Shown here: piece after piece, positions 1,655 to 30,219 of the stretch
Position numbering within the stretch: the stretch's first letter is position 1
How the letters are laid out: each line of letters begins with the position of its first letter
IMG/VR virus record: IMGVR_UViG_3300034375_001773
Location: 1-30,219 of that record
DNA length: 30,219 nt
Direction: 5' to 3' (one strand)
DNA from: a virus
Notes under the pieces: generated by a model
Database searches by the model: none
Told to the model about the DNA's origin: nothing
Seen by the model: only the letters and a program-made list of their open reading frames with translations
Program-made: the position numbers and the translations under genes

Positions 1655-4600
1655 ATGGCAACTGACTTCCAGTATAAAATTAAAGCTATTGATGCTAAAC
1701 CCCATCCTATGACAGGAAATAAGCAGTATGAGTATTTGCTTATGATCGACTATGCAGATGGCGGTACTGCTATGGAACGGTCTGGTGTATTTAGCAGTAA
1801 GCAAGCGGCTACAGATGCTATTAATACAATGATAGCTAAACATAAGTCTTCTGTAGAAGGTAGACCTGTAACCATAAAAACTAACTATGGTACAGAGACA
1901 CAGGAAGTTAATGCTAATCAAAGTTATGCCCTTGAAAAAGAAAAAGAGGCTCTTGAGCAGTCTCTACGTGACTTAACAGAAGACCCTAGTAACCCTGGTT
2001 ATACTGTAAGCGGTAGACAGTTAGTAGATCAAGATACATATAGCTCTCAATTAGGTGCTACAAAGAAACAGTATGCCACACCAGACCCAGCTAAACTAGA
2101 GGCAACAAAAAACCGATACTCTGAGATTAACTCTGTGTTAAGGAGCCAAGCCCCTAATGCTTCTGTTATTAACCGAACACGGCAACGTTTAGAGCAAGAA
2201 GGTCTGACTGTGGGTGCTATCCAAACAGGTGCTACTACACCTACAGAAGATGGGCAGTTTGGTGGTACTGGTGTAGGCACTGGCACTACTTATGATACAA
2301 CTACTGGAGGTGGTACTACTTATGTTGGTGACTCTACTGATGAAGGTGGTACACCTGTAGCTACTGATCCAACAGGCACTGGAACAGGCACAGGTACTAT
2401 AGGTGGTGGTACTACTTATGGTCAACAACCTATTACAGGTACTTTCGGTACACCTCTACAAACTTCAGGGCTATCTGCTGTACCTACATTCAACTATAAT
2501 CAGCCTGTACAACAACAGGCAGGGTTTACCCAACAGCAGTTGACCTCGACTATGCCAGGTATGGGGGGTGCACCTACAGGAGTCCAAACAGTACAATACA
2601 CAAATCAGTACGGACAGAGTATACCTGTCACAGAGTCTAATGGTCAGCCTATCACGTATGTGCCACCAGGATACACTAAAACTACTGGTGCTGCACAAGG
2701 TGGCCTTATGCGTAGAGGTTACGCTGGTGGTGGACTTACTGTGCAGCAGAATGAAGATGGTACGTCTGCTATAACTCTTAATGGAGAAACTATACGTACA
2801 TATCGTGCAGGTCATAGTCCTTCTGTAATACAAGATGAAACTAAACGTTTGCAAGAGTCTCTTAATAAAGTTCAGGATTACTTAGCAACAAATGCTACAC
2901 CTCCTCAAAACGTAGTTGATGCTTTTTATAACTCTACAAATCCAGGTGTTAGTCGTAGTATTTTTACTCGTATGTTTGGTAAGCTTCAAGAGAACGCAAT
3001 AAATAAGCGTATGGCTGAAGAAGCCAAGAAGTATGAAAAAACTTACGGTGTCCAAACTAATGCAGAACGTTATGCGGATCGTGAAGGTTACGGTCAAATT
3101 ACTGAGTCACCAAGTGGAGGCTTTCAACTTAACCTTCCTGGAAATCGTCCTACCTTTGCTACACGTGAGGCTGCACAAGCTTATCTTAGTGGGTTTAACC
3201 AGTTGGTTAATGAAGGATCAGCTCAGGCTTACATAGCTAAACAGCAAAAAGCAGACGGCTTCTTCAAACGCACCCCTCAACCCGAAGCTACCGATGAGTA
3301 CAATGCTAAGAAACAAGCTGCACTAGAGTCATTCCGTGCACTACAAGACCTTCGTGATTATGAGGGTGGTCCCTTATCTCCTGAGTTAATAAAGAAAAGG
3401 GCAATCCTTAGAACAGGTGCTAACACTGCTACACTAGACCCTCAACTTCTAAAAGACCAAGATTTTCTTCGCCAACTCAAAGGTATGGGTGTAGATAAAC
3501 TTGTGTCTGGTGGTATGGGACCAACTGGACTTCCAGAGTTTTCTGAGCTTAGAATTAATTCAGAGGGTACAGGTCCAAATGGACAGGAGCTTTTGTCTGT
3601 AAAAACTATGAGCAGTGGTATGGGGTGGAATGACCTAACCATACGTGACAATCTTGGTGGTACTATTCGTGGTAACGTATTCTTGGATTCAGACAGAATG
3701 GACCCGTCTGTTTTTAAGAATAAGATTGCTAGTTCAGCTGATATTGCAAGTGCTAACCGACTAGGTAAACCAGAGGCGTCTGAGTTTGCGGCTATAACTG
3801 GTCGAAGTCTTAATGAGTCGTTGAAAGCTCTTGGAGGAAACTTTGCATCTGGTGATATTCGTAACTGGGGTGCAATCCTTCAAGCTGGAGACCCGTACCA
3901 AGCTGCGATAGATGCTCAGAAACAGTTGTACTACAGGTATACTCCACAAGACTCTAGAGCAGAAAACACTGGTGCAGATCAATACATCCACCAGATACCC
4001 CAAACTTGGGACGAGATTATTCGTAACTATAGCACGGCTACCCCAGAGCAAAAAGAACTTCTATTAAGAGGGGATATCGTTAGGTTTAAGGACGTAAACA
4101 CAGGCGAGATGCGTGAGGAAGTTCTTAAAAAACCTTCTGAAAGAACAAACACTACACGTCTTGATAGGTATAAAGACCTAATGCGTATTGGTGCTATAGA
4201 CGAGTTTGATATAAAAGATTTTGAAAACTTACCTAACTATCCTGATGCATTCAGGGAAGAGTACGGACGTGACCCTACAGTAGAGGACTTTGCTGACTAT
4301 GGCTACACTGATCCAGAAGGTAGTTTTAAAAATATTATGGGTGATCAGACTCAGGATACTACTACTATAGATGATCAAACAGATGAATTGTTTCCACCTA
4401 GTGAGCCAGACGAGCCTGTCACACAACCAACAACTCCTTATGGTACAACTTACGGACAACAACCTATAACAACAAGTACTACAGGTACAACTTTACAAAC
4501 TGCAGGACTTTCTGCTGTACCTACATTTAATTATAATCAACCTGTACAACAACAAGCAGGGTTCACTCCACAGCAACTTACCTCAACTATGCCTGGTATG

Positions 4601-6625
4601 GGTGGAGGGTCCATAGGAGTACAGACAGTGCAATATACAAACGAATTTGGTCAAACTATTTCTGTAACTGAAAACAACGGACAGCCTATTACTTATGTAC
4701 CCCCTGGTTATAAAAAAACAACAGCTGCTGCACAAGGCGGTATGATGCGTAATGGCTATGCTGAAGGTGGCACTGTAGATAAAGCTATTCTTAAAATAGC
4801 TCAGATGAATGGCTTCCAAGGCTCAACACCAGAACAAGCAAGACTATTTATGAATAGCTCAGAAGGTCTACGTGCTAAGGCTCGTGCTATTGGTGCTATG
4901 ATGAATAAGGGTGGTGCTGTACTTTATGCACAAGAAGGTGTAGATGTACAACCAGGCACTTCAACCGATCCGTCTTTTGCTACACAACTAGCTGGTCAAA
5001 CTAAAGACCTTATCGGTCAGACTATGACACCTCAGCAGTCTACTGTAAATTATATCCAGCCTACTACAGAAGACTTTATACCTACGGGGGCAGGTCAAGT
5101 AGGGGAAACAGCACCTTATGCTGAAGCTGCAACAGTGGGTACAGTACAACAAGCAGGTATACCTACAGTCACAGGTGCTAATACAATGACTCCTACTATG
5201 GTTACTCCTGGCGTACAAGGTGTAACTTCAGGTATGCAGCCTGTAACAGGTACTGTGTCGGATCAAGCTCAAGTTACCGCTGCACAACAAGAAACCTCTG
5301 CTGTATCAGACTTAAAAGCACAGCAAGGTACAGCCATTATAATGGATAACCCAGTACAAAGGGAAATCCAAGATGGTGAGCTTATCTCTGGTGCAGCTAA
5401 TGCACAAAAAGCTGCAGAGTTTACAGAACAAATTGAAGCAGCTACAGCAGAGCCATCTGCTAAGGCTACCGTTCAAGGTCAGCTAGAAGGACTTATGCAG
5501 CAGTTTGAAGGCGGTAATACGCCTGCTTGGGCAGCTGGTTCTATGAGAGCAGCTATGGCTAATCTATCTGCTCGTGGTCTAGGTGCTTCATCTCTTGCAG
5601 GGCAAGCAGTTATTCAAGCTGCTATGGAGGCTGCACTACCTATCGCTCAGATGGACGCACAGACTACTGCACAATTTGAAGCTCAGAACTTGTCTAACCG
5701 TCAACAACGTGCAATGCTAGCTGCTCAACAACGTGCTCAGTTCTTAGGTATGGAGTTTGATCAAGCATTCCAAGCTCGTGTACAAAACTCAGCACGTATT
5801 GGTGACATTGCCAATATGAACTTTACTGCAGAGCAAAACATTGCGTTAGAGAACTCTCGTGCAGCTAACACAATGAACCTGCAGAACCTATCTAACTCTC
5901 AAGCTATGGTAATGGCAGAGGCTGCTGCACTAGCTAACTTAGATATGGCTAACCTAAGCAACCGCCAGCAAGCTGCAGTACAAAATGCTCAGAACTTCTT
6001 GCAGATGGATATGACAAACTTAGGGTTTGAACAACAGACAGCTATGTTTAAGGCACAGCAAAACATTCAAGCTCTATTCACTGATCAAGCTGCTGAGAAT
6101 GCTGCTGCACAGTTCAACGCTTCTAGTGAAAACCAGACTAACCAGTTCTTTGCTAACTTGTCTGCACAGACATCTCAGTTCAACGCAGCACAACAAAATG
6201 CTATGGATCAGTTTAATGTAAATAGTATTAATGCTTTACGTGAGTTTAACTCTGAAATGCAAAACCAGCGTGATATGTTTAACGCACAGAACGGTCTTGT
6301 AGTTGCACAAGCTAATGCACAGTGGAGACAGAACATTGCTACACTAAACACTGCAGCGCAGAACGAAAGCAATATGAACTTTGCTAAAACTATGAATGCA
6401 TTTACATCTACTAACCTAGATGCGTACTGGCAGCGTGAGCGTGACATTATGAGCTTTGCATTTACATCAGCTGAGAATGCTGCAGCACGTATGTCTGAGG
6501 TACTATTAGCAGAAATGAACGCTGAAGCTAAAGCTAAATATGCTGACGCACAAGGTAGAGGTATACTGGGTGCTACACTACTCAAGGGCGCACTCAACTA
6601 TATGGCTGGCGGCAAGATAGTATAA
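1655..6625 (+). CDS. Very large virion structural protein with internal duplication (1656 aa)
   Basis: I do not recognise a named enzyme here. Residues 1-110 form a compact domain. About 190-255 is Gly/Thr-rich linker. A 108-residue block at 253-360 recurs at 931-1039, each copy ending in GG(L/M)MR.GYA.GG. Residues about 360-930 are unique and charged. About 1040-1240 is Thr/Pro/Gln-rich. About 1240-1656 is Ala/Gln/Asn-rich and helical, with NLSN.Q repeats and the phrase RGLGASSLAGQA seen in marine phage virion proteins. The size, position and lack of catalytic motifs point to a capsid-internal or tail protein. The ATG follows AAGG with a 9-base AT-rich spacer. It is followed 11 bases later by the transglycosylase-like gene, consistent with a co-expressed internal virion set. 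Confidence 0.7.
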   Translation: MATDFQYKIKAIDAKPHPMTGNKQYEYLLMIDYADGGTAMERSGVFSSKQAATDAINTMIAKHKSSVEGRPVTIKTNYGTETQEVNANQSYALEKEKEALEQSLRDLTEDPSNPGYTVSGRQLVDQDTYSSQLGATKKQYATPDPAKLEATKNRYSEINSVLRSQAPNASVINRTRQRLEQEGLTVGAIQTGATTPTEDGQFGGTGVGTGTTYDTTTGGGTTYVGDSTDEGGTPVATDPTGTGTGTGTIGGGTTYGQQPITGTFGTPLQTSGLSAVPTFNYNQPVQQQAGFTQQQLTSTMPGMGGAPTGVQTVQYTNQYGQSIPVTESNGQPITYVPPGYTKTTGAAQGGLMRRGYAGGGLTVQQNEDGTSAITLNGETIRTYRAGHSPSVIQDETKRLQESLNKVQDYLATNATPPQNVVDAFYNSTNPGVSRSIFTRMFGKLQENAINKRMAEEAKKYEKTYGVQTNAERYADREGYGQITESPSGGFQLNLPGNRPTFATREAAQAYLSGFNQLVNEGSAQAYIAKQQKADGFFKRTPQPEATDEYNAKKQAALESFRALQDLRDYEGGPLSPELIKKRAILRTGANTATLDPQLLKDQDFLRQLKGMGVDKLVSGGMGPTGLPEFSELRINSEGTGPNGQELLSVKTMSSGMGWNDLTIRDNLGGTIRGNVFLDSDRMDPSVFKNKIASSADIASANRLGKPEASEFAAITGRSLNESLKALGGNFASGDIRNWGAILQAGDPYQAAIDAQKQLYYRYTPQDSRAENTGADQYIHQIPQTWDEIIRNYSTATPEQKELLLRGDIVRFKDVNTGEMREEVLKKPSERTNTTRLDRYKDLMRIGAIDEFDIKDFENLPNYPDAFREEYGRDPTVEDFADYGYTDPEGSFKNIMGDQTQDTTTIDDQTDELFPPSEPDEPVTQPTTPYGTTYGQQPITTSTTGTTLQTAGLSAVPTFNYNQPVQQQAGFTPQQLTSTMPGMGGGSIGVQTVQYTNEFGQTISVTENNGQPITYVPPGYKKTTAAAQGGMMRNGYAEGGTVDKAILKIAQMNGFQGSTPEQARLFMNSSEGLRAKARAIGAMMNKGGAVLYAQEGVDVQPGTSTDPSFATQLAGQTKDLIGQTMTPQQSTVNYIQPTTEDFIPTGAGQVGETAPYAEAATVGTVQQAGIPTVTGANTMTPTMVTPGVQGVTSGMQPVTGTVSDQAQVTAAQQETSAVSDLKAQQGTAIIMDNPVQREIQDGELISGAANAQKAAEFTEQIEAATAEPSAKATVQGQLEGLMQQFEGGNTPAWAAGSMRAAMANLSARGLGASSLAGQAVIQAAMEAALPIAQMDAQTTAQFEAQNLSNRQQRAMLAAQQRAQFLGMEFDQAFQARVQNSARIGDIANMNFTAEQNIALENSRAANTMNLQNLSNSQAMVMAEAAALANLDMANLSNRQQAAVQNAQNFLQMDMTNLGFEQQTAMFKAQQNIQALFTDQAAENAAAQFNASSENQTNQFFANLSAQTSQFNAAQQNAMDQFNVNSINALREFNSEMQNQRDMFNAQNGLVVAQANAQWRQNIATLNTAAQNESNMNFAKTMNAFTSTNLDAYWQRERDIMSFAFTSAENAAARMSEVLLAEMNAEAKAKYADAQGRGILGATLLKGALNYMAGGKIV
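2411..2734 (+). repeat. Internal repeat, copy 1 (108 codons)
   Basis: Codes for residues 253-360 of the 1656-residue virion protein. It starts TTYGQQPIT, contains SAVPTFNYNQPVQQQAGFT and STMPGMGG, and ends GYAGGG. Copy 2 lies about 2 kb downstream in the same frame. The two differ by one codon indel and many synonymous changes. Confidence 0.9.
4445..4771 (+). repeat. Internal repeat, copy 2 (109 codons)
   Basis: Codes for residues 931-1039 of the same protein, again from TTYGQQPIT through SAVPTFNYNQPVQQQAGFT and STMPGMGG to GYAEGG. Conservation is stronger in protein than in DNA, which suggests an old duplication kept by selection rather than a recent copying event. Confidence 0.9.
5685..6360 (+). 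repeat. Degenerate helical repeats in virion protein C-terminus
   Basis: This part of the 1656-residue protein repeats short units of the form NLSNRQQ.A or NLSN.Q followed by Ala/Gln/Asn-rich helical sequence (LSNRQQ at about 5692 and 5957, LSNSQ at about 5887, then several QFNA/QFFA units around 6110-6240). Units are degenerate in both length and sequence. They look like a long alpha-helical rod or bundle. Confidence 0.6.
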
Positions 6626-7490: not shown

Positions 7491-8069
7491 ATGGCAGACG
7501 TATTCAGCGCCCCTATTCCTGGGCAGTCACTCACAGATACACCTAAGAACTATCCTTGGGAAAGACCAGCAGAGATTACTGATCCTCGTGAAGCTATCAA
7601 GTTTCATCTTGATGGTATTAACAGACCAGAAGCTCTCGACAACATTATTGAGATGCTTCAGTTAGGCATACCTGTTAATGCTTTATCTAAGACTGCACTT
7701 ACTACAGCACAGATGGAAGGTATTCACTCTGTAGATGTAAGCCTTATCATTGGTGATGTCATCAAAGAAGAGCTTATTAGCATCGCTGAGGAGGCTGGTA
7801 TTGATTACGTTACTGGTGATGAACCTTCTAAGATTGATACTAAAGAAAAAGAAGAACAAGAAGTCTTAGCTCTACTACGTAAGAAGATTGATGAAGCTGA
7901 TGAGATGGACGCTGGTGTTGAGATGATGCAGCAGACTGCTGATATGATGGCTGACCAAGAAGAAGAACCGCAAGAAGACATCGAAGCAGAAGCTGAGCCT
8001 ATGATGATGCAAGAAGAACAAGAAGAAACTATGCCACAAGAACCACGTGGCTTGATGGCGAAAGGTTAA
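7491..8069 (+). CDS. Small acidic virion-associated protein (192 aa)
   Basis: No enzyme family recognised. Residues 1-125 are a mixed helical region (PREAIKFHLDGI, EALDNIIEMLQLGIP). Residues about 125-192 are extremely acidic and Met/Gln-rich (runs such as DQEEEPQEDIEAEAEP and MMMQEEQEE), ending exactly in RGLMAKG. The position between the wall hydrolase and two giant internal proteins suggests an assembly or internal core protein. The acidic tail could keep partners apart before packaging. The start has TAGGA before ATG. It ends 4 bases before the next ATG, whose Shine-Dalgarno (AAAGG) lies in its last codons. Confidence 0.55.
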   Translation: MADVFSAPIPGQSLTDTPKNYPWERPAEITDPREAIKFHLDGINRPEALDNIIEMLQLGIPVNALSKTALTTAQMEGIHSVDVSLIIGDVIKEELISIAEEAGIDYVTGDEPSKIDTKEKEEQEVLALLRKKIDEADEMDAGVEMMQQTADMMADQEEEPQEDIEAEAEPMMMQEEQEETMPQEPRGLMAKG

Positions 8070-10988: not shown

Positions 10989-13900
10989 ATGTCTAAATAT
11001 GATAGCTACTTTGGTCAACCTGTACAGGCAGAGTCCAAGTACGACAGCTACTTTGGTAGTCCTGTATCTTCGGACCGTCCGAACATAGAAGATCAGACTG
11101 AAGGAGCCTTTACTCCAAGAGGTGTGCGTGACCTTACACGTGATGATGTATTCAATCGTTATGCTGGGTATATGGACTCTCACTTTGGTATGAATGAGGA
11201 CGACTACTCACGTCAAGAGATTGCTGATGCATATGTTAACCATATGCGTAAGTTTAACTTTGGTCAGTCTGTAACTACCCTAGAAGAACTAGCGTACATC
11301 AACAAGGTTAAAGGCTTAGATGATGAACGTCTGAAAGCTAAGCAACTAGCTGAGGCACGTGCTGCTTACGATACGTTTGACTCTATGAAGGGTGCCTTTG
11401 CTGACGGTACAACTGCTTGGGAAAAACTAGATGCAGTAGGTGACTACGGACGTGCACTTATTGTAGACCCAGTTAACCTTGTAGGTCTAGGCGTAGGTAA
11501 GCTAGTGTCAGGTGGTGCAACTAAAGCTGCAGCACAGGCAGCTAAGTATGCTGTACGTAAAGAAGCACAGAATGTAATCAAGAGTAAAGGTATTACTGAA
11601 GGTGCTCGTGCACAAGTTAAACAGCTTGAACGTGTAGCTGCTAACAAGATCATCAAAGAAGGTTCATTCAAGACAGCAGGCAAAGAGATTACCACTAATC
11701 AGATTGCTCGTAGAGAAGCACTAGGCGTAGGTGTAGTTGATGCTGTAGCTGGTGTAGGTATGGACGCTGTGTACCAGAACATTATGGATGATGTTGATCT
11801 ACAAGATGGCTACAATATGATGCAAGGCTCTATCGCCCTAGCAGGTGGTGCGCTGGGTATGGGCTTAGGTTATTCTTTTGCTCGTGGCTTCCAGATGGAT
11901 GAAGCTGATGTGTCCTCTCTTGGTGCTATCAAGTTCTTCCAAGCACAGGAACACTTAGCTAGAGCGCGTCAGCTTGCTGGGGATACATCACAGACTATTA
12001 AAGACTTAGATGTTAATGGCTTTGAAGCTAGTCTCCCAGGCTTCCGTGATATGGTAGAGACACTAAAGGACAAAGCTGCACGTGGTGAGCCTCTTCGTAT
12101 GGAAGCTGACAAAGGTTATCTACCTGATGAGCTAGCTTGGCAAGAGGCTTTCTTTGCTGGGGTGTCTAACGCACTAGCTGACAACGGTGTTAAGTACTGG
12201 GCTAAGCGTGGTCCTCAAGACGGCTTCCTTAACTGGATGTCTGACCTTATGAAAGCTATGCCTGATAATGTTAAGGACCAGCTGTCTGACATCTATGATG
12301 ATACACTAGGTGCTAACGTTGAGATATACAAAGGCAAGAAGCTGTTTGGTAATGAGGACGGAAAGTCTGCGCTTGATATGGTAGCTAGTGAAGTAAGTGA
12401 TGGCGCTAAGCTTATGAACTTTACAAGCCAAGCATCTAAGGTATTCACTAAGCTAAAAGAACTTAAACCTGATGCTGATGCAGACGAGCTTATCGAAGAG
12501 TTTATCCAAGTAGAAGCAGGAGCACCAGCACGTGCAGCTGTAAACAAGATCAAGTCGGGTGCTGACTATATGCAGCGTAACCTTATTCGTATGCTTGTTA
12601 CACACCCTGGTACTACTGCACTTAACTTGATTGGTTGGCAGACAGCTAGCACAATGCAAAGTATGGCTGACATTGTACGTGGTACTTTGTATGGTGGTGC
12701 CTCTGTGATTAACGCAGCTGTCTTGAACAAAGAAGGTGCAGCTAAGTTCGCTAAGAAAGCTGGGCTTATGTTCAGCCTACAGAAAGACAAGATGCGTAAC
12801 TTGCTAGACCCTAATATGACGTATGAAGCGTTTATGGATTTCCTAGCGTTTAACCCTGCAGCACAGAAAGATATGCTACGTTATATGGCTGGCGGTGTAG
12901 ACATTGAGCAGATGTCTCGTGATCTACAACTAGAAGAGTTCGCTGAGATAGCTAAGGATGCGCTGGGTAAGGATGCCATTAAAGATATTAGCCGTAGTAA
13001 GCTAGACAAAATAATGGATAAGATTCAGCTAGTCTATGGTGTTAAGCTGCAGGATATGGCTACTAAATCTCAGGAGTTTATGTACGCTATAGATAAGCAG
13101 ATGCGCTTGAAGTACGATATGACTTATGTAGACTTCTTGAATGACCCTAATATGTGGAAGCGTATGATGGGGGACGACTATGCAGAGATTGTAAGTACAG
13201 CTTCTCAAGATGCACTACGTAACGTGTTCTCTAAGAGCTATGCTGATTCTAAAACACCAGTAGGTACAATCGCTGGGTTTATTGAGAGCTTAAGTCGTCA
13301 GCCTATCATTGGCGCTATGGTTCCGTTTGGTCAGTTCTTCAACAACACTCTAGCTCATATGATGGATCATACAGGTATTAGTTTAGCTCACAAATACTGG
13401 GCAGGTACAACACGTGATCCTATGGAGCTTTTAACTAAAACCTCTATTGGTCTTAGCTCTATCGGTGTACTGTCTCAGTTTGAGAAAGAGAACCTAGATG
13501 CAGGCTTAGCTTGGTATGAAGAACGTGCATCAGATGGGTCTATCCGTAACCGTCTGTATGACTTCCCTTATATATTCTACAAAGCTATTGGACGTATGGG
13601 TGCTCACATTGAGAAGGATGGTACAGTACCTCGTGAATTGTTTGATGAAGTAGTAGTAACCTTTGGACCTGGTAACCTTACTCGTCAGCTAGACGACAAT
13701 ATGAAAGGTATGTATGACATTATCTCTGATGCTGTTACCGCCGAAGACCCTGAGTATGGTCAAGCCGTAGTCAAGCTTGTACAGAACACAACAGCTATGT
13801 ATGCATCAGGCTATACACGTTTCCTTGATCCAGTAAACCTCACTGCAAGTATGATGAAAGGTGAAGCTTACGTAGCACCTGATCGTAAGCAAGGCTCTGA

Positions 13901-27292: not shown

Positions 27293-27517
27293 TTAGCCTG
27301 CAAAGTGACGCACCTTACGTGAGCCACGCTTGTTGCCAGACTGTTCGATGTACACGCTGCGCTTACCTATGTGGTATGCAGTCATACAAGCACCACGTGT
27401 CACGCCAAAGCGTTTGATATATTGGCGCTTGCGGGTCAAGCCCTTGATGCCTGCGAAGTTAAAGCGGAAGCCAGTAGTGCCATCGTTAAGTGGTTTAGTT
27501 GCGAAACATACAAACAT
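27293..27517 (-). CDS. Small basic protein (74 aa)
   Basis: The sequence has short aromatic and basic clusters (GLTRKRQYIKRFGVTRGA, HIGKRSVYIEQSGNKRGSRKVRHF) and a net positive charge, which could indicate nucleic-acid binding. No family recognised. The start ATG overlaps the 44-residue gene by one base (TAATG) with GAGGAG eight bases upstream. The next downstream signal is the UUCG hairpin, so it ends a local transcription unit. Confidence 0.7.
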   Translation of the reverse strand: MFVCFATKPLNDGTTGFRFNFAGIKGLTRKRQYIKRFGVTRGACMTAYHIGKRSVYIEQSGNKRGSRKVRHFAG

Positions 27518-27651
27518 TATTTTGTCTCCTCTAGTGCTGTACGAATTTCAGATAGTAAGTTCTTGAGTTCTGCGTTGTTAGCCATACGAGTGTTAGGCAA
27601 TATCTTCTCACACATATCAAGTATCTTCAGGTTTAGTTGTTTAGTAATCAT
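27517..27651 (-). CDS. Small helical protein (44 aa)
   Basis: MITKQLNLKILDMCEKILPN followed by TRMANNAELKNLLSEIRTALEETK: two amphipathic helices, so probably a helical hairpin or an oligomerising peptide. It overlaps the upstream 100-residue gene by 4 bases (ATGA) and the downstream 74-residue gene by one base, with GAGGAG for the next gene in its last codons. That junction geometry at both ends supports it as a gene. No family recognised. Confidence 0.65.
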   Translation of the reverse strand: MITKQLNLKILDMCEKILPNTRMANNAELKNLLSEIRTALEETK

Positions 27652-27950
27652 TTGTCAAGCCCTCCGTCTATGACAATAAGTTTAGGTTTGTAGGCAGCCT
27701 TGGGTACAGGACGTATGAGTTCGTGTCTGTACTCAAGGAACCTATCGTAGTCATACTCATCGAGTCTTAACTTCGGACGGTCCGAAGATAGATCAAACCA
27801 AGCGAAGTTGAACAGGGTCTCAAGCAATGCAAGCATACGTATGCCTGACTGCTCAGTCCTGCAAGCCGTAATCAAATACTTGTTGTCGTTGATCACCTCG
27901 GAAAGGTAGCGGGTATCCTCGTCTGTCTCGTCGAGTGTATGCATAGTCAT
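27648..27950 (-). CDS. Hypothetical protein (100 aa)
   Basis: No family recognised. Residues 1-20 are acidic (LDETDEDTRYLSEV), then ITACRTEQSGIRMLALLETLFNF (helical), DLSSDRPKLRLDEYDYDRFLEYRHEL and a short C-terminal KLIVIDGG. The SSDRP codons contain the second copy of the 18-base palindromic repeat. AAGGAG lies eight bases before the ATG. Its first 98 bases overlap the end of the preceding gene in another frame, the longest overlap in this arm. The Shine-Dalgarno quality is the main support. Confidence 0.65.
   Translation of the reverse strand: MTMHTLDETDEDTRYLSEVINDNKYLITACRTEQSGIRMLALLETLFNFAWFDLSSDRPKLRLDEYDYDRFLEYRHELIRPVPKAAYKPKLIVIDGGLDK
27773..27790 (-). repeat. 18-base palindromic repeat, copy 2
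   Basis: On the minus strand it reads TATCTTCGGACCGTCCGA. With the following AG, arms CTTCGGAC and GTCCGAAG (8 bp each) surround one C. It is in the gene at 27648-27950. Confidence 0.9.
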
Positions 27951-28068
27951 TGTTGTGTCTCCTTACATCTACTTTGTAATGTCTTAACTTCTTGAGCGTA
28001 CCATCTATACGATCTTCAGGTACAGTTGCTATGAACTTACCGTCAATGAATATTTTATATGTATTCAT
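27853..28068 (-). CDS. Small Arg-rich protein (71 aa)
   Basis: MNTYKIFIDGKFIATVPEDRIDGTLKKLRHY looks like a compact beta-beta-helix start, then a strongly basic tail (VDVRRHNND, TRRDRRGYPLPFRGD). No family recognised. AGGAG precedes the ATG by six bases, inside the preceding gene (overlap 14). The C-terminal third overlaps the next gene's N-terminus for 98 bases in another frame. It may end earlier in function, or the overlap may be real. Confidence 0.6.
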   Translation of the reverse strand: MNTYKIFIDGKFIATVPEDRIDGTLKKLRHYKVDVRRHNNDYAYTRRDRRGYPLPFRGDQRQQVFDYGLQD

Positions 28069-28462
28069 AGCCTGCTCCTAGCATCACCTTTGTCGTAACC
28101 TTCTGGTCACCACCACCAGTTAGCACAGCCAATGTTGCTTTGTCAATAGGCTCTCCAGTGTCCTTAACTACGAAGCTGCTGTACTTGTATGGATTGTACG
28201 TCACCTCCTTGCCGTGAAACACAGCGTGGAAGTAGTTACGAGCACAAGCCTCGTCATCCTCTGGCAAGATGTAACCACGTACAAAAGCGTGGACATTCTT
28301 CTTACGCTCACGTAGTACACGCTCACGTCCTGCCTTACGTACTACGAACTGAGGGTTAGCGATAGCAATGTGATTAGTGTGGTCAATCACACGCCCTGTC
28401 TTACAGTCACGCACACTGAATAACTTCTTGTGCAGATTAAAGTATACTTCAACTCGTTTCAT
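28055..28462 (-). CDS. Conserved phage protein of unknown function (135 aa)
   Basis: The segment KRVEVYFNLHKKLFSVRDCKTGRVIDHT followed by VRKAGRERVLRERKKNVHAFVRGYI is a pattern I associate with a conserved protein in many phages, with no known function. The rest includes FHGKEVTYNPYKYSSF and a Gly-rich end. ATG at 28462 is preferred to GTG at 28468 because AAAGGG is then about seven bases upstream. It overlaps the upstream 46-residue gene by 14 bases. Rich in Arg/Lys, it could bind nucleic acid, but no motif shows this. Confidence 0.7.
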   Translation of the reverse strand: MKRVEVYFNLHKKLFSVRDCKTGRVIDHTNHIAIANPQFVVRKAGRERVLRERKKNVHAFVRGYILPEDDEACARNYFHAVFHGKEVTYNPYKYSSFVVKDTGEPIDKATLAVLTGGGDQKVTTKVMLGAGYEYI

Positions 28463-28589: not shown

Positions 28590-28770
28590 CTTCCAATAAC
28601 TCCACATCTGTTTCCCATACCCAATCACCTACACCGCTGTCGTTGAACTCGCCACCGTCAACGTTGTCCTTGATCCAACGCCACCATTCGTCCTCTGGAA
28701 TATCATCAGGTACATAACCCTCCCAATCCAAGAAGCTAATCATTTGTGCTGTCGATCTAACTCTGGGCAT
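28579..28770 (-). CDS. Small very acidic Trp-rich protein (63 aa)
   Basis: Of 63 residues about 18 are Asp/Glu and only 4 are Arg/Lys, with six tryptophans: FLDWEGYVPDDIPEDEWWRW, then GEFNDSGVGDWVWETD and ELLEDES. No family recognised. Such composition can mark a DNA mimic, but this is inference only. ATG at 28770 has GAGG about seven bases upstream. A GTG one codon earlier (28773) is equally possible. It overlaps the preceding gene by 14 bases and the following 46-residue gene by 11. Confidence 0.6.
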   Translation of the reverse strand: MPRVRSTAQMISFLDWEGYVPDDIPEDEWWRWIKDNVDGGEFNDSGVGDWVWETDVELLEDES

Positions 28771-28999
28771 CACTCATCTCCTCGTTAAGTAAGTAGCTAC
28801 CTATAGTCTCCTCGACTATATCGAATAGCGTATTGAATCTATCTTGTGCATCATCCGTGTACATCACACAGTCGTGCACCTTGTCGTGAAAGTACAAGTC
28901 CTCTGGTGCAGTCACATTAGCATAGTACATATTCTCTAGTACAGCACCTGCAATCTCAGCTACAAGTTCTGTTCGTGTTGCTCTACATATTAGGGGCAT
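28757..28999 (-). CDS. Small helical protein (80 aa)
   Basis: MPLICRATRTELVAEIAGAVLEN, then MYYANVTAPEDLYFHDKVHD and a helical end RFNTLFDIVEETIGSYLLNEEM. No family recognised. The start is ATG at 28999: GGAGG lies seven bases upstream within the previous gene, and the stop of that gene overlaps it (TAATG). A longer frame from 29071 reads over a well-supported neighbouring gene in another frame and is rejected. It overlaps the acidic Trp-rich gene by 14 bases. Confidence 0.65.
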   Translation of the reverse strand: MPLICRATRTELVAEIAGAVLENMYYANVTAPEDLYFHDKVHDCVMYTDDAQDRFNTLFDIVEETIGSYLLNEEMSDAQS

Positions 29000-29142
29000 T
29001 AGTTTTCCTCCTGAAGTAATCTCTGCATAAACTTTAGCATCTGCTCTTCGTACTCGAATGTGATCTGCCATTCGTTGTCAGGCATAGCATTCCACAGATG
29101 ATACTGTCCGTCAGGATATGATATGATAAACTTATACTTCAT
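28999..29142 (-). CDS. Small hypothetical protein (47 aa)
   Basis: MKYKFIISYPDGQYHLWNAM, then PDNEWQITFEYEEQMLKFMQRLLQEEN: a beta strand or two followed by an amphipathic helix. The start ATG overlaps the previous stop by four bases (ATGA) and is served by the repeated GGAGTTAGAACA cassette. Its own end carries GGAGG and TAATG for the next gene. This two-sided coupling is good evidence for a short gene. No family recognised. Confidence 0.65.
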   Translation of the reverse strand: MKYKFIISYPDGQYHLWNAMPDNEWQITFEYEEQMLKFMQRLLQEEN

Positions 29143-29154
29143 TGTTCTAACTCC
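29139..29154 (-). promoter_or_regulatory. Gene-junction cassette GGAGTTAGAACAATGA, copy 1
   Basis: GGAG is the Shine-Dalgarno, ATG the start of the 47-residue gene, and ATGA also closes the 110-residue gene. It codes for the C-terminal residues ELEQ of the preceding protein. Two further exact copies are at 29468-29483 and 29671-29686. Confidence 0.9.
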
Positions 29155-29471
29155 ATTACATAAGGTTTGCTACCAAAGTCGGTAACGTTACACCAGTTAT
29201 CAATCCACTTGCCGTGCAAGCAGTCACAGATAGTTTCATCAGGTGCATTGCCGTGCACTAGGTATGCCCAGTCTACAGGTGTAAGCTCCAGTGTGTCAGG
29301 GTTCACGGTGCATAGCTCAAGCTCTACCTCATCACACGCAGTGGCAGCTTCCCATATCGCATCAGGGTTGCGGCCTGTGTAATCTATCTCACCCTCCCAC
29401 GATATCATTACTACGCACTCAGTGTGTGTAATCACATCGTTGATCATCTTGTATGCTACATCGTTACTCAT
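29139..29471 (-). CDS. Hypothetical acidic protein (110 aa)
   Basis: MSNDVAYKMINDVITHTECVV, GEIDYTGRNPDAIWEAATACDEVELELCTV and DWAYLVHGNAPDETICDCLHGKWIDNWC, ending VMELEQ. Five cysteines are scattered, not in a tidy zinc pattern, though C94 and C96 (ICDC) and C104 could bind metal. No family recognised. ATG at 29471 is chosen because it overlaps the upstream stop as ATGA and has the GGAG cassette. The frame is open 13 codons further upstream (29510) but without a site. Confidence 0.65.
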   Translation of the reverse strand: MSNDVAYKMINDVITHTECVVMISWEGEIDYTGRNPDAIWEAATACDEVELELCTVNPDTLELTPVDWAYLVHGNAPDETICDCLHGKWIDNWCNVTDFGSKPYVMELEQ

Positions 29472-29483
29472 TGTTCTAACTCC
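29468..29483 (-). promoter_or_regulatory. Gene-junction cassette GGAGTTAGAACAATGA, copy 2
   Basis: Same 16 bases as copies at 29139 and 29671. Here it closes the 68-residue gene and starts the 110-residue gene with an ATGA overlap. It decides the start of the latter at 29471. Confidence 0.9.
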
Positions 29484-29674
29484 TCTGGTACAACATCCCA
29501 ACCAATCCATTCAGTATAATAACATATCTGTTTGGCATCAGGTTCATCATACAAATCATCACGCTCTAAATTATCTGCCATATTACGAAGCTCATCATCA
29601 GTACAATCGTCTGCTACACGGCGTGTGACCTCGTATTCAACCGTAGTATTTAAACGTATCTTAACTGTCTTCAT
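29468..29674 (-). CDS. Small acidic protein (68 aa)
   Basis: MKTVKIRLNTTVEYEVTRRVADDCTDDELRNMADNL, then ERDDLYDEPDAKQICYYTEWIGWDVVPEELEQ. A short beta pair (KTVKIRLNTTVEYEV) precedes an acidic helix. No family recognised. Both ends lie in the junction cassette (GGAGTTAGAACAATGA), with four-base overlaps to both neighbours, and the protein ends in ELEQ as its neighbours do. Confidence 0.7.
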   Translation of the reverse strand: MKTVKIRLNTTVEYEVTRRVADDCTDDELRNMADNLERDDLYDEPDAKQICYYTEWIGWDVVPEELEQ

Positions 29675-29686
29675 TGTTCTAACTCC
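29671..29686 (-). promoter_or_regulatory. Gene-junction cassette GGAGTTAGAACAATGA, copy 3
   Basis: Same 16 bases as the copies at 29139 and 29468. It closes the HhH-like gene and starts the 68-residue gene at 29674. Confidence 0.9.
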
Positions 29687-30219
29687 ATAATTGCAGTGAC
29701 GTGATACTTAGACACAGCATCACCAGTTGGCAAGGACTTATTCATACCACCCTTGTCAGCTACGTAGTTACACCACGTGTTCCACCAGTACTCGGCACCT
29801 CTGCGTCTACACAGCTTAACGTAGTCACGTATCTTGCGGCGGCGTAGCTCAGGCTTGACCTTCTTGTTAAGCAGCAAGCTATCTTCGGACCGTCCGAGCA
29901 TACGAATGTTGTGGCGATCCAGACAAGCCACCTCAAAGCCGCACATCTGTGCAATGAAACCCGCCTTGACCATACCGATAGACGGAATAGCCACAAACAA
30001 ATCGACAGCCTCTTGAGCACCATCAATAGTGTCCTTGCCATACTGCTGAGCGATGGCGTTGATCTCTTCGTGCAAGCGCTGGGCGTTAGCCTTGGCATAC
30101 TCTATGCCTTGCGCCTTGGTACTGGACACCCACTTGCTGTGGATGCCCTCCGCTTTAATAGATACACGCTGTTGTATGACACGTGAGAGTGGCATATTGA
30201 TTGTGCATAGGGTGAACTC
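29671..30219 (-). CDS. HhH-GPD glycosylase-like DNA-binding protein, probably N-terminally cut by the window (at least 174 aa)
   Basis: Counted from the ATG at 30195, residues 70-96 read IPSIGMVKAGFIAQMCGF then EVACLDRHN. This resembles the helix-hairpin-helix and Asp region of endonuclease III (LPGVGRKTA ... VDTH), with D93 in the place of the catalytic Asp and K77 one residue away from the Lys position. A basic helix RRRKIRDYVKLCRRRGAEYWWNTWC follows at about 118-142. It may be a small HhH DNA-binding or glycosylase-derived protein; activity is uncertain. The frame stays open to the window edge, and no Shine-Dalgarno precedes the ATG at 30195, so the true start may lie outside. It ends MELEQ in a junction cassette. 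Confidence 0.55.
   Translation of the reverse strand, partial: EFTLCTINMPLSRVIQQRVSIKAEGIHSKWVSSTKAQGIEYAKANAQRLHEEINAIAQQYGKDTIDGAQEAVDLFVAIPSIGMVKAGFIAQMCGFEVACLDRHNIRMLGRSEDSLLLNKKVKPELRRRKIRDYVKLCRRRGAEYWWNTWCNYVADKGGMNKSLPTGDAVSKYHVTAIMELEQ
29880..29897 (+). repeat. 18-base palindromic repeat, copy 3
   Basis: TATCTTCGGACCGTCCGA on the plus strand, inside the minus-strand HhH-like gene. The central palindrome TCGGAC-C-GTCCGA is intact. The outer bases differ from copies 1 and 2. Confidence 0.9.

Follow-up and report, generated by a model that had tools for sequence, protein, structure and literature searches.

A three-copy start-site junction in a roseophage small-gene array whose gene content varies at start codons

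The small-gene array and its junction cassette

The window (the whole 30,219-base viral record analysed here) belongs to a marine phage, an HMO-2011-type roseophage, of which it is a fragment. Its DNA polymerase is 67% identical to those of Roseobacter phages CRP-603 and CRP-2 and 54.7% identical to that of HMO-2011, and the same block carries an integrase, endonuclease I, a DnaB-type helicase and RNR, which fit that group. The window end bears, on the minus strand, a run of small overlapping genes, A to F, then another small ORF, and then G (Table 1). Genes were called by a simple ORF rule. No family was found for A, B, C, D, E or F in a PHROG search, and tblastn of B, C and E against 50,697 phage records gave no match.

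Table 1. Genes and shared junctions of the small-gene array (window coordinates)
Feature	Position	Strand	Remarks
Gene A, 174 aa	29671-30195	minus	conserved anchor gene; C-terminus ..IMELEQ
Cassette J1 (A/B junction), GGAGTTAGAACAATGA	29671-29686	minus	exact 16-mer; 20-bp identity to J3 spans 29669-29688
Gene B, 68 aa	29468-29674	minus	in IMG/VR, only in the L053/L054 lineage and L016
Cassette J2 (B/C junction)	29468-29483	minus	exact 16-mer
Gene C, 110 aa	29139-29471	minus	present in L016, L056 and L057 (76-98% aa identity)
Cassette J3 (C/D junction)	29139-29154	minus	exact 16-mer; at 3' end of gene C
Gene D, 47 aa	28999-29142	minus	absent from L016, L056 and L057; homologues elsewhere with other neighbours
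Gene E, 80 aa	28757-28999	minus	start codon marks the right border of D gain or loss
Second shared junction, GAGGAGATGAGTGATG, end of E	28768-28783	minus	then three different genes (F in the window; others in L016 and L056)
Gene F, 63-64 aa	28579-28770	minus	absent from L016; displaced in L056/L057 by at least two other genes
Gene G (phrog_586 / Phage_L5_gp82 family)	28055-28462	minus	conserved downstream anchor

We found exactly three copies of GGAGTTAGAACAATGA, all on the minus strand, at the consecutive stop-start junctions A/B, B/C and C/D, and no fourth copy within two mismatches in the whole 30,219-base record. The A/B and C/D copies are identical over 20 bp, ATGGAGTTAGAACAATGAAG. In each copy a GGAG Shine-Dalgarno (SD) sequence stands 8 nt before the ATG, ATGA serves as both stop and start, and the codons read E-L-E-Q. 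An earlier note on this DNA had described just this, a 16-base junction used three times in a row to join four genes and made up of Shine-Dalgarno, ATGA stop-start and ELEQ codons, and the description holds in full. It had added that the proteins otherwise differ; indeed B, C and D have no protein homology (best blastp E 0.14). At 16-20 nt, with coding sequence overlapping it on both sides, the cassette leaves no room for a promoter or terminator. The cassettes are translation-coupling junctions, with the Shine-Dalgarno within the last codons of the upstream gene.

A profile for 8-oxoguanine DNA glycosylase/AP lyase of the HhH type matches gene A weakly (E 0.0065), and the HhH lysine (K77) and aspartate (D93) are invariant. 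Its AlphaFold model (pLDDT 87) has only a poor match to 3knt (TM 0.36), and the fold search gave nothing reliable. Gene A is possibly a phage HhH glycosylase-like protein. Elsewhere in the window, a 1656-aa structural ORF contains an internal 299-nt repeat (2435-2733 and 4472-4770, 76% identical). A palindrome around CGGAC[C/G]GTCCG occurs at 11065-11087, 27768-27790 and 29880-29902, and three sites were reached in 0/100 shuffles; relatives have 3-6 copies with clade-specific flanks (TTCGGACCGTCCGAA, CTCGGACCGTCCGAG, TGTCGGATCGTCCGACGAC), some within coding sequence, and the palindrome may be an operator or other DNA-binding site.

Repetition beyond chance

Every match to GGAGTTAGAACAATGA in IMG/VR (2.9 million viral contigs) falls at an SD-ATG start, and most are lone sites in unrelated phages; the sequence is thus a natural RBS as well. 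No lineage but the window's own has three adjacent copies; it includes L053 and L054, near-identical contigs from two other datasets with the same three cassettes. L016, which is 90-91% identical to the window over most of its length, has two full copies and GGAGTTAGAACAATGC at the third place. These are metagenome contigs, in which misjoins are possible; the paired contigs L053/L054 and L055/L056, from separate datasets, agree, and the main alleles are found again in independent datasets.

The observed cassette count was reached in 0/100 shuffles. A random junction equals GGAGTTAGAACAATGA with p ~2.2e-6, as estimated from 429 SD-bearing start contexts in 27 phage clusters, so that the chance of two further matching neighbours arising by convergence is negligible. 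More generally, with one representative for each of the 27 clusters, 9 pairs of neighbouring junctions (3 of them the window's own) have at least 13 nt in common, where shuffled gene orders predict 2.5 (0/5000).

Convergence on a good ribosome-binding site would be in keeping with the single start sites that this 16-mer forms in many unrelated phages; at about 2e-6 per junction, three in a row and a 20-bp match between two of them are not expected, and the junction at the end of C is conserved by descent. We reject chance convergence as extremely improbable, given the composition-matched probabilities and the conserved C-end junction.

Gene content at the locus in relatives

The gene order in L016 is A-B-C-E, with D absent exactly from ATG to ATG and the junction reading GGAGTTAGAACAATGCCCC. 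L056 has A-X-C-E, with another gene in place of B and no D, and L057 has A-C-E, with neither B nor D. The borders of the D absence in all three are the AATG of the cassette and the AATG of E; they share only these 4 nt, not the full cassette, which stands on one flank only. The check that the earlier note proposed, whether gene content between cassettes varies, thus finds variation among close relatives, both between such junctions and after them, with breaks exactly at start codons.

All relatives with C (L016, L056 and L057) keep its terminal junction, GGAGTTAGAACAATG, and follow it directly with E, so that the same short sequence is followed by D in the window and by E in the relatives. The earlier note would have taken junctions that differ in relatives with the same genes as a sign of chance convergence; the C-end junction is instead kept wherever C occurs. 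The junctions after A in L056 and L057 differ from that of the window (GGAGATGTAATAATG and GGGAGACATGAACCAATG, respectively): the A-end junction changes where the neighbouring gene changes, and the C-terminus of A varies among relatives (IMEM-stop, IMGDMNQ-stop, IMGE-stop). Since the C-end junction is kept while those after A differ, the end of C would appear to be the oldest visible home of the cassette.

Change continues downstream. Gene F lies directly after another gene in L147, and the ATG of gene G is the right border of several replacements. Identity between L016 and the window rises to 97-98.6% in the small-gene block A'-E (window 28770-29858, L016 12491-13438), from 90-91% in the rest of the shared genome (p 1e-21), a sign of recent exchange or transfer. 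Among all exact 16-mer matches of IMG/VR we found none of the excised forms A-J-C, A-J-D and B-J-D, a point against the account that we favour below. In the window at 27428-27535, the start region of a 74-aa gene has 73% DNA identity to cobavirus CRP-5 (Zobellviridae, another family), and the likeness takes in some 20 nt ahead of the start codon.

Modular duplication, one of the origins that the earlier note had offered, would have a gene and its junction duplicated in tandem and the body of one copy later replaced, leaving the junctions repeated. Repeated junctions are in fact concentrated among neighbours, and in these phages gene bodies are often replaced between borders at ATG; yet B, C and D have no trace of mutual homology, and a duplicated C was seen in no relative examined. 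We consider this origin distinctly unlikely. Simple tandem duplication of genes, with B, C and D as paralogs, was rejected, there being no mutual blastp match better than E 0.14.

Gene D as a start-to-start unit

Homologues of D lie between other neighbours in L155-L159, L163, CRP-603 and CRP-9. The comparison of L157 with L149, whose flanks are near-identical on both sides, places the entry of D exactly before ATGGGTAAAG, just ahead of the start codon of the next gene, and D in L157 brings its own terminal Shine-Dalgarno. The proteins of the D homologues align up to residue LL43, after which their tails diverge, as determined by the junction. The insertion and the junction-set tails define the D unit as running from its start codon to the next start codon. 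In CRP-603, D is followed by an E-like gene, so that the event at the window locus may be a gain (in the window lineage) or a loss (in L016, L056 and L057). Transposase-like insertion of D with target-site duplication was rejected: AATG flanks D in the window, and there is no repeat in L157.

Other cassettes and event borders

The clearest repeat-flanked gain or loss is that between L110 and L117, of a related phage group, where gene variation around a cassette is as the earlier note had predicted. L110 has the order GAGGTATGTATCATG, a 78-aa gene, GAGGTATGTATCGTG, a 138-aa gene, the 78-aa gene being flanked by a different cassette, GAGGTATGTATC[A/G]TG; in L117 this gene is gone and one copy of GAGGTATGTATC[A/G]TG is left. 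In L119 and L102 other genes follow the same cassette. The gain or loss that separates L058 from L063/L064 is flanked by the imperfect repeat AGGAATAARCAYATGGCAT (19-21 bp), and that between L053 and L057 by GATGCGTAAG (10 bp). In L058 and L061 a copy of GGAGAGTAACTATG stands on either side of the gene after A; L068 lacks the genes between A and a conserved gene downstream, with a GGAGAGTAACTATG start site as the left border.

We collected 162 indels and replacements across the loci of the A gene family and cultured phages. When each distinct border is counted on the coding strand, 17/69 of those on the left and 20/76 of those on the right fall 0-2 nt from an SD-preceded start codon, compared with ~1.2% at random (p 6e-18 and 1e-21, respectively); the random-position null ignores the need for intact genes, so these figures measure precision, not mechanism. 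At start sites the events show overlaps of 0 to 21 nt. Several clean gains and losses have start-site repeats of 10-21 nt; the cleanest events at the window locus share 3-4 nt only (AATG, GATG).

Two models for the exchange of tiny genes have been distinguished, targeted short homology and random joints followed by selection (PMC3233612). Under the second, illegitimate recombination at random positions with selection for intact genes would have produced the borders, and the cassettes would have been copied separately, by gene conversion or slippage of one RBS, with no role in swapping. Where genes overlap by ATGA, about the sole tolerated joint would be the start codon, and both models predict borders at gene ends: selection that keeps genes intact would by itself bring borders there too, which counts against our preferred account. 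Phage module boundaries usually coincide with gene boundaries without conserved boundary sequences (PMC3233612), and many clean events at the locus share 3-4 nt only. Set against these points, 10-21-bp repeats containing SD and ATG flank several gains and losses in relatives, and borders are far commoner at the ATG (17 left, 20 right) than just upstream of the SD (7 and 10). Overall, the 10-21-nt repeats favour short homology in some events, while 3-4-nt overlaps fit either model; we regard random joints with separately copied cassettes as rather unlikely.

The cassette could instead be a regulatory element through which a translational regulator coordinates A, B, C and D. Its RBS position in several adjacent genes is compatible with this, and the start-associated sequence (SAS) of cluster K mycobacteriophages is a precedent (PMC3203893). 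However, relatives with A and C have unrelated junctions upstream of them, the record holds only three copies, and other lineages repeat wholly different junctions; nor does the window have an Rfam match, which leaves a regulatory RNA unsupported. Such a regulatory role seems very improbable.

Two other kinds of repeat were seen in these searches. A 32-36-bp palindromic repeat, GAAACCGTCCAATGTTGGACACTTTAAACGGA, borders gene gains and losses of 246-272 bp in L108, L110, L119 and L102 (about 1600 and 7580-7890), and is a candidate promoter/operator cassette of the PeSL type (promoter early stem-loop; see below). An unrelated phage, L012, has the same 16-mer twice, at 1911-1926 and 2881-2896, each copy within a repeated unit of ~60 bp that comprises a terminator-like hairpin (CCCCTTGATTGGGGC), an A+T-rich leader and an RBS; this two-copy unit looks like a mobile regulatory cassette.

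Proposed mechanism

Repeated junctions, borders at start codons, variable gene content, and gain or loss of genes between repeated cassettes in relatives are observed in these phages. The account that we favour, and think probable, is that gene blocks running from start to start are gained, lost and replaced, while junction copies spread by short-homology recombination. The array of this HMO-2011-type roseophage would change fast, each block beginning at its own start codon and ending at the next one. The last codons of a block would carry the Shine-Dalgarno for the gene that comes after it, and the new junction would complete the stop codon, so that a block could enter at any start codon with translation on either side undisturbed. 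A good junction, here native to the 3' end of C, would be copied by short-homology recombination between start-site junctions, the step that makes the copies being replication-linked annealing or template switching of phage DNA between junctions. Most likely, the terminal junction of C was copied upstream during the recombination that brought in B. Duplicated junctions would be direct repeats, and the gene that they enclose could then be lost. As the cleanest events at the window locus share 3-4 nt, the full 16-bp cassette was not needed for them, which also tells against this account.

We infer from sequence comparison both the end of C as source and junction recombination as the maker of the copies. 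The earlier note had suggested that identical junctions, arising by duplication or homologous exchange, let small genes be swapped in and out. The process is supported, for gene content does vary at start codons; the copies themselves probably arose by short-homology recombination and less likely by duplication or RBS copying. More tentatively, the small-gene arrays of these marine phages may follow a general plug-in grammar, a possibility to which we give something under an even chance: the start-to-start unit would carry the Shine-Dalgarno of the next gene and borrow the stop of the recipient, with lineage-specific repeated RBS cassettes as landing pads.

The way in which phages swap tiny early genes and leave the neighbours intact is a long-standing question. 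These phages offer a concrete, testable case, in which breakpoints can be placed within 2 nt of start codons and genes gained and lost are flanked by start-site junctions in repeated form. It also follows that the C-termini of such small proteins (ELEQ here) are dictated by the junction and not by what the protein does.

Comparison with known systems

The Hendrix/Hatfull model explains the gene mosaicism of phages by illegitimate recombination and selection. As in that mosaicism, the joints described here coincide with gene boundaries; they differ in lying within 2 nt of the start codon and, in several cases, in repeated SD-ATG homology.

PeSLs of T4-type phages are mobile regulatory cassettes (Arbiol 2010, Comeau 2014). 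Like them, the junctions form a repeated control element among small early genes and would mediate the shuffling of these genes, and repeated copies flank small genes of varying presence (L110/L117 and other events). Unlike them, the junctions are 14-21 nt of overlapping coding sequence, whereas a PeSL is an intergenic early promoter with a stem-loop terminator; of the repeats seen here, the two-copy element of L012 and the palindromes of the L108 group have more the look of PeSLs. T4 PeSLs are reported to shuffle small genes, in work cited in PMC4503421.

The SAS of cluster K mycobacteriophages occurs in 11-19 copies, with one 13-mer conserved across the cluster, and mostly before genes with gaps of >50 bp (PMC3203893). 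Our junctions resemble SAS/ESAS in that both are short, asymmetric repeats that occupy the RBS position of genes from different families, and differ in having three copies here, in overlapping genes, with a sequence not conserved across relatives.

That phage module boundaries coincide with gene boundaries is already known, and in lambdoid phages short conserved boundary sequences between genes have been modelled as targets of homologous recombination (PMC3233612). The present junctions are likewise identical short sequences at which the modules of relatives differ and have their joints, but here the repeated sequence is the coding stop-start and RBS itself, is lineage-specific, and recurs within one genome. 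The junction thus resembles both boundary sequences and PeSLs, and differs from them in being coding, shorter and lineage-specific.
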